Virus record (IMG/VR): IMGVR_UViG_3300032134_000020
Location: 1-24,353 of that record
Length of the DNA: 24,353 nucleotides
From: a virus
Strand: one strand, 5' to 3'
The first letter of the stretch is position 1. The number at the start of each line of letters is the position of its first letter. Of the stretch, positions 10,280-14,377 are shown piece after piece. The position numbers and the translations under genes are program-made. The notes below the pieces were generated by a model. The model saw only the letters and a list, made by a program, of their open reading frames with translations. It had not been told where the DNA came from and ran no database searches.

Positions 10280-11137
10280 TTACCTCTTTTCATTCATTAC
10301 CCATGCGGTCGCACGCTCAGCTTTTGAAAACGCTTGTTGCAATGCATTGGGATTATCTTGCAACATTTCAATCCAATTATTGAGATATTTTGCATGATCT
10401 TCGCGGGGTTCATTTATCATGCCAAGTTTAATCATGCTCATGGCGCTGCTACATTCCGCCACCAACTCCTCAAATGCATAACCTTTGCGATCTACACCAA
10501 ACTTTCGATCTAGTAAAGATTTATGGCCAGTAGCATGACCCAATTCATGGAATAGAGTACTATAAAAACCGTTTGTTGTTTTGAATTGTTCGCGCTCTGG
10601 CATATGCACATCATGCACGGCGGGACTGTAGTATGCACGATCACCACCATATATAACATTGATACCAGTGTTATTGACAACACTTTCCGCCTTACCATTA
10701 CGTTCCACACCATTAGGCAATGGCGTATCGTTTTTCTTGGCCAGTAATGGCGTTTCAAGTTGCGCGCCATTATAAACAGCATAAGCGCGCCAGCCCGCTA
10801 TAAATGTAGACTTTTCGCCGTCTTCATTTTTGTTTACGATTAATGGGCGGAGCAACCATGTTCTGGTTTTCAATTCGTCACGTCGCACGCGATATTTGCC
10901 ATTGGATTGCTTGCACTGATTATACGTTAACCAATGGGCACTATTCCAGTCATGCGACATTGCCGCCATTGATAGGATAAATGGATTAAATCCGCTAAAC
11001 TTATGGCCAGTTGAAATGTTCACATGTTCGCCTAAGTCTATAGACGTTTGGACCCATGGCTTGCTCCAATCGGTTCCATGTTTCCGCATAGCACTAATGA
11101 ACATATCCGCATTGATTTGAATTGCTTTATCTGACAT
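10280..11137 (-). CDS. ArdC-like antirestriction protein with zincin metallopeptidase domain
   Basis: 285 aa. The N-terminal half (about 5-125) has the ArdC single-stranded DNA-binding pattern, including WSKPW, SGFNPFILS and HWLTYNQ followed by a Lys/Arg-rich strand. The C-terminal half is a zincin: HELGH (197-201) gives two zinc His and the catalytic Glu, and the following FEELVAE (about 222-228) supplies the usual acidic third ligand. Plasmid ArdC proteins protect incoming DNA from type I/II restriction. It is the first gene of the leftward arm, about 570 bases from the strong leftward promoter, a position that fits early anti-defence. The start has an ATATGGGAAT leader instead of a classic Shine-Dalgarno sequence. 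Confidence 0.88.
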   Translation of the reverse strand: MSDKAIQINADMFISAMRKHGTDWSKPWVQTSIDLGEHVNISTGHKFSGFNPFILSMAAMSHDWNSAHWLTYNQCKQSNGKYRVRRDELKTRTWLLRPLIVNKNEDGEKSTFIAGWRAYAVYNGAQLETPLLAKKNDTPLPNGVERNGKAESVVNNTGINVIYGGDRAYYSPAVHDVHMPEREQFKTTNGFYSTLFHELGHATGHKSLLDRKFGVDRKGYAFEELVAECSSAMSMIKLGMINEPREDHAKYLNNWIEMLQDNPNALQQAFSKAERATAWVMNEKR

Positions 11138-11585: not shown

Positions 11586-11764
11586 CATAAGAATATTTCT
11601 AGTAACAAAATCAATGCCTTATGAATCTATTCTAGTCCATAAGTAGTCATAAGATTAGAAGAAGTAGGAGAAAGTATCATAAGTATTAATATGGGGGGTG
11701 GGGTTCATAAGTATATATTATACACCTTCTGACGAATTTGTCAAGCTTTATTTTTTATCTTATG
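11586..11764. repeat. cluster of CATAAG/CTTATG repeats
   Basis: Seven copies in 179 bases: CATAAG at 11586, 11638, 11648, 11678 and 11706, CTTATG at 11618 and 11759. Several share a longer form, TACTTATGR on the minus strand. They flank the leftward promoter, as expected for binding sites of a regulator or initiator. Confidence 0.55.
11717..11744 (-). promoter_or_regulatory. main leftward promoter, consensus sigma70
   Basis: TTGACA (11744-11739) and TATAAT (11722-11717), both perfect, 16 bases apart on the minus strand. TGACGAATTTGTCA (11730-11743, plus-strand reading) forms an operator-like palindrome over the -35 box and spacer. A 30-bp stretch (11716-11745) is repeated in inverted orientation at the rightward promoter with two mismatches. 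Confidence 0.85.
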
Positions 11765-11832
11765 ATAACGTATTGATTTCATTAATTTTTATTTTTTAGA
11801 AAAATAGCCTTTATTCTACTTTTATAAAATAA

Positions 11833-11895
11833 CTTACATGCCTCAAAATACCCCTTTAGTATCAGTAGTTTAACATAGGCATGTAAGCTTTTTTT
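11833..11895 (+). terminator. inverted repeat with T-tract, terminator-like or attenuator-like
   Basis: CTTACATGCCT (11833-11843) and AGGCATGTAAG (11877-11887) are perfect 11-bp arms, followed after one base by seven Ts (11889-11895). The 33-base loop is long for a simple terminator. A second inverted repeat, AAAATACCC (11845-11853) with GGGTATTTT (11912-11920), interlocks with it, so the two helices form an entangled pair. Confidence 0.4.
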
Positions 11896-11928: not shown

Positions 11929-11976
11929 ATAGTTTCCTTTATTATCAACTACTTATAACTTTTTTTAATTTTTTAC

Positions 11977-12004
11977 TTGACAAATCTGTCAGAAGGTGTA
12001 TAAT
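11977..12004 (+). promoter_or_regulatory. main rightward promoter of the structural arm, consensus sigma70
   Basis: Perfect TTGACA (11977-11982) and TATAAT (11999-12004), 16 bases apart. TGACAAATCTGTCA (11978-11991) is a palindrome with five-base arms covering the -35 box and spacer. The 30-bp block 11976-12005 is the inverted twin of the leftward promoter. Transcription would start near 12011. Confidence 0.88.
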
Positions 12005-12010
12005 AGTAGG

Positions 12011-12187
12011 TAGAGCAGTAAAAAAGTCAAACCTTCTCACTTCACTTTTTACTGGAAGAGGGCTTATTCCTTACTGCTATACTTCTTCTATTAGACTTGT
12101 TCTAATAGGGGCGATAAAAGGACTTAAAAAGTGCAACTCGTAAGTCACTTTCCATGGTTTATCCTTTTATCAGATTAAAGGAACATT
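12011..12187 (+). promoter_or_regulatory. structured 5' leader with riboswitch-like Shine-Dalgarno switch
   Basis: Element 1: CAGTAAAAAAGT (12016-12027) pairs with ACTTTTTACTG (12044-12054), or alternatively AGCAGTAA (12014-12021) with TTACTGCT (12071-12078). Element 2: hairpin CTATTAGA/TCTAATAG (12088-12108, five-base loop), extendable by further pairs. Element 3: GATAAAAGGA (12113-12122) pairs with TCCTTTTATC (12162-12171). Inside it GACTTA/TAAGTC and AAAGTG/CACTTT interleave as a pseudoknot. TCCTTT (12162-12167) is also the exact complement of the ribosome site AAAGGA (12177-12182), so element 3 and Shine-Dalgarno sequestration exclude each other. No known riboswitch class recognised. Confidence 0.6.
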
Positions 12188-12412
12188 ATGGCTAGAAATT
12201 ATATAAAAGAGTATGCTAATTACCATTCTAAAGGTAAGCAAGTACAACGCCGTCAGGATAGAAATAAGGCTAGAGCGGATATGGTAAAGGCAGGAGCAGT
12301 ATCTAAGGGTGATGGAAAAGATGTACATCATGTAGATCATAATACAAAGAATACAAATAGAAATAACCTAAGAGTTATGTCTAAAAGCCGTAATAGAAGT
12401 AGAAAAGTCTAA
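12188..12412 (+). CDS. small HNH-type protein upstream of terminase
   Basis: 74 aa. The C-terminal half carries DVHHVDHN (H47, H48, H51) and NRNNLRVMSKSRNRSRK, the HNH beta-beta-alpha layout ending in a basic tail; the N-terminal half is Lys/Arg-rich. AAAGGA lies five bases before the ATG and may be controlled by the structured leader. Small HNH proteins next to terminase genes assist packaging cleavage in several phages, and this protein is the first gene of the packaging operon. It lacks a zinc-binding CXXC pair, so it may be a reduced or accessory version. Its stop overlaps the small terminase start as TAATG. Confidence 0.8.
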   Translation: MARNYIKEYANYHSKGKQVQRRQDRNKARADMVKAGAVSKGDGKDVHHVDHNTKNTNRNNLRVMSKSRNRSRKV

Positions 12413-12819
12413 TGTTGCCAGCTAAAAGAAATAGAGAACTTACCAAGAAACAGAGTGTCTTCTTAGATTCTCTGTTTGATAATGGTGGTAACGTTATTCA
12501 AGCGATGGATTCTGCTGGATACCATGTAGGTTCCAGAAGTAACCTTATGCACTCTGTAAAGCATGAGATTATTGAAAGAGCTAGAAATCAACTTGCTGGT
12601 TCTACTGTAAAATCAATTAACAGACTAGCAGAAGCTCTAGATGCTGATGGAACTATTCCTAATAGTCAGGTAGAAATACGAATGAAAGCAGCTAATGATA
12701 TTCTAGATAGAGTAGGTATTGGCAAACGTCAAGAGCTTGATATTAGAGCAGAAGTTGTTCATGGTGTTGTACTACTCCCACCGAAAGGTAAGGAAAGAGC
12801 GATGGTTTTAGATGGATGA
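12412..12819 (+). CDS. terminase small subunit
   Basis: 135 aa, directly between HNH and large terminase. The N-terminal region LTKKQSVFLDSLFDNGGNVIQAMDSAGY is a helix-turn-helix of the small terminase type (LT..Q..F......G....A...AGY). A central helix-rich part (residues 48-100) suits oligomer formation. It would recognise the packaging site and hand DNA to the large subunit. It overlaps the large subunit gene by eight bases. The call rests on pattern and strong gene context. Confidence 0.82.
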   Translation: MLPAKRNRELTKKQSVFLDSLFDNGGNVIQAMDSAGYHVGSRSNLMHSVKHEIIERARNQLAGSTVKSINRLAEALDADGTIPNSQVEIRMKAANDILDRVGIGKRQELDIRAEVVHGVVLLPPKGKERAMVLDG

Positions 12820-14377
12820 TGAACAAGAAAAACCTAAAAGACGCTATCAGTATAGCTCAAAACAAAAAGCAAAAATAAAATTTAGAAAAAAGATTGCTAA
12901 ACGTAAGAAAGAACTTAAATCCTTAGAGTTAAAGAACGATAATAGTAAGAAGAAGTCTAAAGGCGTTATTGAGAAGAAGATAAAAGCATCATCAAAAGCT
13001 GATATTATCTTTGAGCCAAATGAAGGGCCTCAGTACACTTTTCTAGCCGCACCTGAAAAAGAAGTATTGTATGGTGGTGCTGCTGGTGGTGGTAAATCGT
13101 TTGCTATGTTAATGGATTTACTACGTTATGCAGGTAATGGTAATCATCGTGCTTTGCTACTACGTAGAACATTAGCAGAACTAACAGAACTTATAGATAA
13201 AAGCAAACAAATTTACCCTCGTGCATTTCCCGGTGCTAAGTTTAAAGAATCTACTAAAACTTGGGTTTTTCCATCAGGAGCTACCGCACTATTTAGTTAT
13301 GTAGACCAAGATGATGATGTGTATCGCTATCAAGGAATGGCGTTTTCATGGATTGGTATAGATGAGTTAGGGCATTATCCTTCACCCTTTGTATGGAACT
13401 ATCTCCGTTCTCGTCTACGTACTACCGATCCAGATATTCAAACGTACATGAGAGCAACAGCTAACCCCGGTGGTGCTGGTGGTTGGTGGATTAAAAAAAT
13501 GTTTATCGATCCTGCTCCACCAGATGAACCGTTCTTTGCTACCGATACAGATAGTGGTAAAACTCTTGTTTTTAGTGTTACGCATGAAAGAGCAGGAGAA
13601 CCTTTATTTAGACGTAAGTTTATCCCTGCAAGATTGACTGATAATCCTTATCTTATGCAGGATGGTGAGTACGAGACGATGCTGATGTCTCTGCCAGAAG
13701 TACAAAGAAAGAGACTTCTGGAAGGAGATTGGAATGTTTCTGAAGGAGCAGCATTTAGCGAGTTTAATACGTTAGTGCATGTAGTTGAACCGGAGGAACT
13801 TCCTTATAACTGGATTAGAATACGTGCTTGTGATTATGGTTTTAGTTCACCTTCTTGCGTACTGTGGGGAGCTATAGATTGGGATGGGTGTATCTGGATA
13901 TATAGAGAGCTATACCAAACAAGACTAACAGCAGAAGAGTTAGCAGGAGTAATTTTAGAGCTAGAGGCTTTTGATCCCAATATGTACGCATCTATTCTAG
14001 ATAAGTCGTGTTGGAATAAGACCGGATTAGGGAAAAGCATTGCTCAGACAATGATTGAACGAGGACTTCGCTGGATTCCTTCTAATTCAGATAGAATGCA
14101 AGGTAAACAAGAAGTGCATAGGCGGCTACTAATGGATGCGTACAGTCATCCCCGATTAAAGATATTTAATACCTGTACTAATCTTATTCGTACTTTACCT
14201 TCTCTACCAATGAGCAAGACAAATAGTGAAGATGTTGATACCCGTGCTGATGATCATGCTTATGATGCATTACGATACATGTTTATGAGCCAACAAAGCA
14301 CCAGACCTCCTTCAACATCTTTTGGAATGACACATTTAAACAAACCTATGATACATGATAAAGTATTTGGATATTAA
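12812..14377 (+). CDS. terminase large subunit
   Basis: 521 aa. The ATPase domain has Walker A GGAAGGGKS (88-96) and Walker B WIGIDE (D184, E185); TANPGG (216-221) fits the motif III region. The RNase H-like nuclease has D341 in ACDYGF, D398 in ILDKSC and DDHAYDALRY (D480/481, D485). It drives ATP-powered packaging into the portal and cuts the concatemer. The first 63 residues form an unusual, very Lys-rich helical extension before the ATPase, which may help bind DNA or the small subunit. It overlaps the small subunit gene and ends two bases before the next ATG. Confidence 0.96.
   Translation: MDDEQEKPKRRYQYSSKQKAKIKFRKKIAKRKKELKSLELKNDNSKKKSKGVIEKKIKASSKADIIFEPNEGPQYTFLAAPEKEVLYGGAAGGGKSFAMLMDLLRYAGNGNHRALLLRRTLAELTELIDKSKQIYPRAFPGAKFKESTKTWVFPSGATALFSYVDQDDDVYRYQGMAFSWIGIDELGHYPSPFVWNYLRSRLRTTDPDIQTYMRATANPGGAGGWWIKKMFIDPAPPDEPFFATDTDSGKTLVFSVTHERAGEPLFRRKFIPARLTDNPYLMQDGEYETMLMSLPEVQRKRLLEGDWNVSEGAAFSEFNTLVHVVEPEELPYNWIRIRACDYGFSSPSCVLWGAIDWDGCIWIYRELYQTRLTAEELAGVILELEAFDPNMYASILDKSCWNKTGLGKSIAQTMIERGLRWIPSNSDRMQGKQEVHRRLLMDAYSHPRLKIFNTCTNLIRTLPSLPMSKTNSEDVDTRADDHAYDALRYMFMSQQSTRPPSTSFGMTHLNKPMIHDKVFGY

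Follow-up and report, generated by a model that had tools for sequence, protein, structure and literature searches.

Few of the structured leaders on phage late operons have been charted, and the closest systems for comparison with the locus described here come from several settings. Retroviral dimerization initiation sites (DIS) are 6-nt palindromes in the 5' leader that vary among lineages yet are always palindromic (PMC5874298). The hatchet ribozyme is a small RNA in which a palindromic internal segment (ACGU) drives the formation of dimers, and the phi29 pRNA, a phage RNA linked to packaging, multimerises by loop pairing (PMC7357161). The putRNA of HK022, approximately 70 nt long with two stem-loops, is located just after PL and needs no dedicated protein partner (PMC9378689).

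We analyzed a stretch of viral DNA of 24,353 nt (the window), in which a packaging operon runs rightward (+ strand) from a predicted start near position 12011 and opens with a leader that contains an element here called E2. E2 is a new phage leader RNA family with an unusual covarying palindrome, is absent from Rfam release 15, and was not found described in the open-licence literature. The phages that carry it have terminases similar to those of the HMO-2011 type, which is abundant in the sea. Like the DIS, E2 has in a 5' leader a hexamer that varies among lineages but is palindromic in each; the DIS, however, lies in the hairpin loop of a packaged RNA genome, whereas the E2 hexamer forms a junction strand within an mRNA leader, in a phage with a DNA genome, and is a candidate dimer site. 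The palindrome is kept without exception in E2 but not strictly in the hatchet, and E2 has neither an Rfam match nor any sign of a catalytic core. The pRNA is an RNA of its own and has two different loops that complement each other, while E2 belongs to a 5' UTR, has a single palindrome, and matched nothing in Rfam. With putRNA, the leader shares the placement of structured RNA directly after a phage promoter; E2 differs in being anchored to the start codon, and the sequences of the two were compared through Rfam only. Translational riboswitches and RNA thermometers are similar in their 5' UTR location, their helix near the Shine-Dalgarno (SD) site and, for the window's phage, their anti-SD strand. 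They differ from E2 in that it has no ligand core or conserved SD sequestration, and its helix stability varies widely.

The packaging operon and the fold of its leader

The rightward transcript is predicted to start near 12011 from the position of a sigma-70-type promoter (TTGACA-16-TATAAT, 11977-12004, + strand) with 12 of 12 consensus matches. A start after 12113, named in a preliminary description of this DNA as incompatible with its reading, is thus not indicated, and the leader (12011-12187) showed no promoter-like site on the plus strand. An SD site, AAAGGA (12177-12182, +), is followed 5 nt downstream by the ATG at 12188 of the first gene, which encodes a small HNH protein of 74 aa (12188-12412, +; Pfam HNH_3, E 4e-7). 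Next are the genes for the small terminase subunit TerS, of 135 aa (12412-12819, +; tblastn against annotated HMO-2011-type TerS, best E 1e-21), and the large subunit TerL (12812-14377, +; PHROG 979, E 9e-62; Pfam Terminase_6N).

The same control region contains a perfect leftward sigma-70-type promoter (11744-11717, - strand) that diverges from the rightward one, and the two sit within a 30-nt, 93% inverted repeat (11716-11745 and 11976-12005). The spacer between the -35 and -10 hexamers is a lineage-specific near-palindrome, for example CCGTGAAACGG in L006, and resembles an operator common to both promoters. The segment between the promoters, which neither predicted transcript includes, has an 18-nt inverted repeat (CTTACATGCCT...AGGCATGTAAG, 11826-11894) followed by a T run; the repeat is kept in L003, L006, and L010 and also in L408, which has no E2. 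The first sizeable gene of the leftward operon (10280-11137, -) encodes an ArdC-like anti-restriction protein (Pfam ArdcN and MPTase-PolyVal).

The leader folds into three parts, E1 (12015-12077, +), H2 (12088-12108, +), and E2 (12113-12171), and its stability was better than that of shuffled sequences (z of -2.5). E1, the promoter-proximal hairpin, is formed by GCAGTAA/TTACTGC and an inner stem in both the MFE and the centroid fold. H2 (CTATTAGA/TCTAATAG) is confined to the lineages of the window, L003, and L006; in L006 it reads ATATTAAA/TTTAATAT, two compensatory changes, and in L010 it is not present. E1 and H2 correspond to the two hairpins previously claimed upstream of the long helix, and the alternative partner claimed for the first of these was also located, as a 9-bp pairing of CAGTAAAAA (12016-12024) with TTTTTACTG (12046-12054). 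This partner lies in the loop of E1 itself, with a similar arrangement in L003 and L006, and the pairing is possibly a folding intermediate.

The outer helix of E2, P1, joins the purine-rich, SD-like strand GATAAAAGGA (12113-12122, +) to TCCTTTTATC (12162-12171, +), which in the window's phage is also complementary to the SD. This perfect 10-bp pairing is as the preliminary description gave it and can be read directly from the DNA. A perfect 10-bp inverted repeat was present in only 2.4% of dinucleotide-shuffled leaders, so P1 is more than chance. Inside P1, the joining strand J1, CTTAA (12123-12127, +), ends in UAA in nearly all members of the curated member table. It is followed by the nested hairpin P2 (12128-12151, +), in which AAAGTG (12128-12133) pairs with CACTTT (12146-12151) around a 12-nt loop with U-N-A (12141-12143). 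Directly 3' of P2 is the palindromic hexamer CCATGG (12152-12157, +). A leader peptide beginning at a GTG or ATG within E2 was considered and rejected, as these start codons are not conserved.

Conservation of E2 among marine phages

Relatives were gathered by TerS searches of viral contigs, with TerS identities from 96% down to approximately 60%. These yielded 15 distinct versions of E2 (the window, L003, L006, L010, L096/L097, L098/L395, L396, L368, L397, L107, L399, L407, and L409), located between a promoter of the TTGACA-16-TATAAT type, in most relatives, and the first gene of the packaging operon. The shared order is P1, a joining strand ending in UAA, P2 with a 10- to 13-nt loop that usually has U-N-A, a hexamer of the form C....G, a U, and the 3' strand of P1, before which all members except the window group and L010 have a third hairpin. 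In L010, E2 was read by eye and its P1 is interrupted. The first gene after E2 is HNH in the window, L003, L006, and L010, TerS in L096, L098, L368, L397, L396, and L399, and an unknown ORF in L107, L407, and L409; TerS is the downstream gene common to all of the loci. Whatever the first gene, the distance from the end of P1 to the start codon was 14 to 27 nt in 11 of 12 members, while that from E2 to the promoter varied from about 17 to 185 nt. In L096, the leader before E2 (541-723) contains an ORF of 60 aa that has zinc-ribbon-like cysteine pairs and ends with a stop codon in the E2 joining strand.

Compensatory changes in relatives, suggested earlier as the check on the long helix, were strong: all 10 of the P1 pairs had changed on both sides. 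In P2, two-sided changes were found for 3 of 5 counted pairs and 100% of the cells were paired. For P1, P2, and the hexamer together, 15 of 18 pairs had two-sided changes and 98.6% of pair cells were standard; because the structure was chosen on the same sequences, this per-cell percentage is biased towards it and the two-sided changes carry more weight. The covariation score was 0.765, compared to 0.314 for shuffled controls and no more than 0.217 with the helix slid; the alignment behind these figures had the joining strands and third hairpin removed. Departures from Watson-Crick pairing on the + strand comprised 11 G-U and no A-C, the G-U cases representing approximately seven independent events by our own reading. 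This imbalance points to constraint on a sense-strand RNA and not on a DNA inverted repeat. It also makes it very unlikely that E2 is a cos or pac DNA packaging site, an inverted repeat beside terS with a symmetric nick site. Such sites often lie near HNH-terS-terL, and both the position adjoining these genes and the palindromic centre would suit one; duplex DNA, however, would not be expected to favor G-U over A-C on one strand, the contigs continue through E2, and the hexamer sequence changes freely. Taken together, these comparisons of related sequences show E2 to be homologous across a marine phage clade, with P1 and P2 constrained as sense-strand RNA. E2 is almost certainly a conserved structured RNA, and it is best explained as a cis-acting one at the 3' end of the 5' UTR of the packaging operon.

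The distribution of E2 was followed with several searches. A structural descriptor, refined from a first, looser version that was too noisy, matched 14 distinct sequences in 6.1 Mb of DNA (both strands), all in these operon leaders, versus 1.3 expected by shuffling. A covariance model trained only on the L096/L098/L368/L396/L397 group recovered the E2 of the window at 12114-12170 (E 1.5e-3) as well as those of L399 (2e-10), L006 (3e-4), and L107 (3e-3), and found L409 and L010 weakly (0.25 and 0.73), all of these E-values being rough owing to a short calibration. L407 and L003, in both of which E2 is plain, escaped the model when default filters were used. The model gave no further matches in the 346 kb searched, nor any E2 in 89 further loci, 77 of which have HNH genes outside this operon type, nor in cultured HMO-2011-type phages, in which TerS is inside the operon or behind other leaders. 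A scan of viral contigs with the DNA pattern TTCGTAAGNCGCTTNC gave, among the matches listed, true members that were already known, and the descriptor picked out no others from its matches. Other pattern scans of viral contigs gave mostly chance matches plus TerS-linked members, and a scan of 84,980 genomes gave 13 matches, none with P1, that were judged to be chance. No match to annotated phages was found by blastn. In L408, a promoter and TerS are separated by a leader of only about 20 nt with no E2, so the wider group as a whole does not depend on E2. The TerS operons of a further group (L412-L421) have a structured leader of another kind (GTTTCTCTTCACACTCAATATCCC...GGGATTATT...AGTGAG...GAGAAAC).

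These distributions do not fit gating of the HNH gene specifically, since E2 precedes TerS or unrelated ORFs elsewhere and the 77 other HNH loci lack it. They also do not fit a HEARO or IscB omega RNA: such RNAs are linked to an HNH-RuvC nuclease gene, the HNH gene here encodes only a 74-aa HNH_3 protein, and E2 is present without HNH in L096, L098, and L368.

The long helix and the ribosome site

The preliminary description read the leader as a switch in which the formation of P1, driven by a ligand, by temperature, or by kinetics, would leave the SD free, and the opening of P1 would let TCCTTT cover it. TCCTTT (12162-12167) is indeed the exact complement of AAAGGA, nine bases on, but a TCCTTT upstream of the SD was also present in 15% of dinucleotide-shuffled leaders, which makes the coincidence weak. 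In the window's own sequence the proposed competition is possible. The probability of P1 at 37 C was 0.81 for an RNA ending at 12190 and 0.02 for one extending to 12240, and the alternative fold, which covers the SD and start codon and also pairs CCATGGT with the start region, became slightly better than P1 once coding sequence was included. Since P1 is transcribed first, kinetics matter for the choice between these nearly equal folds. The competition is not conserved in relatives. In all 11 of those tested the P1 fold won by 4.5 to 16 kcal/mol, in several members P1 is a GC-rich helix of 14 to 15 bp, and in most the SD is mostly unpaired with P1 formed. The complementarity of each SD to its own P1 strand was no better than that of cross pairs among phages (p=0.31). 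Given these energies and this comparison, a conserved P1-versus-SD switch is unsupported and we consider the switch reading rather improbable for E2 as a whole, although a lineage-specific SD switch in the window's phage is possible according to the modelled folds.

Other parts of the riboswitch reading fared differently. That the operon has a structured, unclassified RNA leader is borne out by the compensatory changes in the long helix and the absence of an Rfam match, and the statement that no known riboswitch class is recognisable agrees with the Rfam scan, which had no gathering-threshold match in the window and nothing credible under permissive settings, whether at E<=10 for the region around the leader or, in six relatives, at E<=3. 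The two interleaved pairings described as a pseudoknot cannot coexist, because TAAGTC (12141-12146) and CACTTT (12146-12151) share base 12146. Moreover, GACTTA (12121-12126) occupies two bases of P1, and the pseudoknot is missing from L010, L096, L098, L107, L399, L407, and L409, where the nested P2 hairpin is conserved instead. A conserved L2-J1 pseudoknot was likewise ruled out, there being no co-variation. A thermosensor is difficult to reconcile with the cost of opening P1, which ranges from 2.9 to 16 kcal/mol among members. The layout is also not that of an aptamer, in that only about eight unpaired positions are conserved (UAA, U-N-A, C....G, and U), with no ligand-binding core. Mutually exclusive folds of the kind used as a riboswitch expression platform were not conserved, the window being bistable and its relatives not. 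A ligand-binding riboswitch is conceivable, although nothing observed here speaks positively for one. The same small set of conserved unpaired positions, and the lack of an Rfam match to any ribozyme, make it exceedingly unlikely that E2 is a self-cleaving ribozyme trimming the 5' leader, even though its compact helices and palindromic segment recall the dimerising hatchet and its ACGU (PMC7357161).

The palindromic hexamer and the proposed action of E2

The hexamer reads CCATGG, CGTACG, CCTAGG, or CCGCGG and is an exact palindrome in 100% of members. By parsimony on the TerS tree it has changed at least five times, in a small sample; between the close relatives L098 and L396 its centre has gone from AT to TA while most of the remainder is identical. 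A search that did not require a palindrome added no member among TerS leaders and found no non-palindromic version. The comparison of members thus shows that the hexamer has repeatedly changed its sequence and stayed self-complementary. Because no leader was found to hold a second copy, the hexamer could not achieve this pairing within one RNA. An exposed palindrome of approximately 6 nt kept across lineages, as in DIS-type sites, was found in every member, with at least five double changes. Always palindromic, repeatedly changed, single-copy, and DIS-like, the hexamer is most simply read as a site of dimerization, which suggests pairing between two leader RNAs. The isolated hexamer duplex was calculated at -7.8 to -12.1 kcal/mol; at the concentrations of an mRNA, the six base pairs of a single palindrome make a modest contact unless they are pre-organised. 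A role of the hexamer alone at the DNA level is possible, because the palindrome is also symmetric in DNA.

We propose that P1 and P2 would form once transcribed, ahead of the emergence of the ribosome site, and that P1 would hold its pyrimidine-rich 3' strand off the SD, leaving the leader open for translation by default. The exposed palindrome would then pair with its counterpart in another leader RNA, and the resulting dimer, possibly held by a dimeric protein, would change either how readily ribosomes reach the first packaging gene or how stable the mRNA is. For the window's phage, the fold covering the SD and start codon is close enough in energy to provide a possible off state, as a lineage-specific addition. 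We favor this default-open, leader-pairing reading tentatively, at somewhat less than even confidence. The broader proposal, that in this new RNA family the packaging-operon leader self-pairs through its lineage-specific palindrome and mRNA dimerization controls the production or delivery of the packaging machinery, is more doubtful still. The covarying palindrome nevertheless makes a specific and cheaply checked prediction of RNA-RNA dimerization for the mRNA leader of a DNA phage; gene control through mRNA homodimerization, if true, would be one of few such cases in nature.

Leader hairpins that bind proteins are a familiar feature of phage mRNAs, and E2 might instead be a translational operator, bound beside the ribosome site by a phage protein, for example a dimeric or ring-forming one such as TerS, that turns expression of its own operon down or up; in that case the palindrome would be a symmetric protein site or part of a protein-held RNA dimer. 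The fixed spacing to the start codon irrespective of the first gene, the presence of TerS downstream at all E2 loci, and the precedent of such hairpins are in keeping with an operator. A fixed protein site should keep its sequence, yet the hexamer and most unpaired letters vary, and we regard this explanation as unlikely, if the nearest competitor to leader-leader pairing.

Since the distance of E2 to the start codon is kept and that to the promoter is not, E2 is likelier to act on translation initiation or on the fate of the mRNA than on RNA polymerase. This spacing bears directly on whether E1 and E2 could be a put-like elongation element that binds RNA polymerase near the promoter and suppresses termination along the late operon. 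Two structured elements do lie directly after a strong promoter in several phages, as the two stem-loops of HK022 putRNA lie just after PL (PMC9378689), and E1-like hairpins are widespread among related phages. However, E2 occurs without E1 in L368 and L397, no Rfam match was found, and the palindrome would be left unexplained, so that a put-like role for E2 appears quite improbable.

The case for E1 itself is one of architecture only, as z-scores for short-leader folds did not distinguish rightward from leftward leaders (means of -1.06 and -0.75). Relatives have an E1-like architecture with other sequences: many HMO-2011-type phages (L113, L114, L116, L117, L125, L132, L139, L145, L157, L407, L409, and L101), and also L295 (Pelagibacter phage HTVC033P), have after their rightward packaging promoter a hairpin built of an outer stem, asymmetric loops, and inner and middle stems. 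The sequences are quite different among these carriers, and the E1-like hairpins may represent a second, wider RNA family, possibly put-like.
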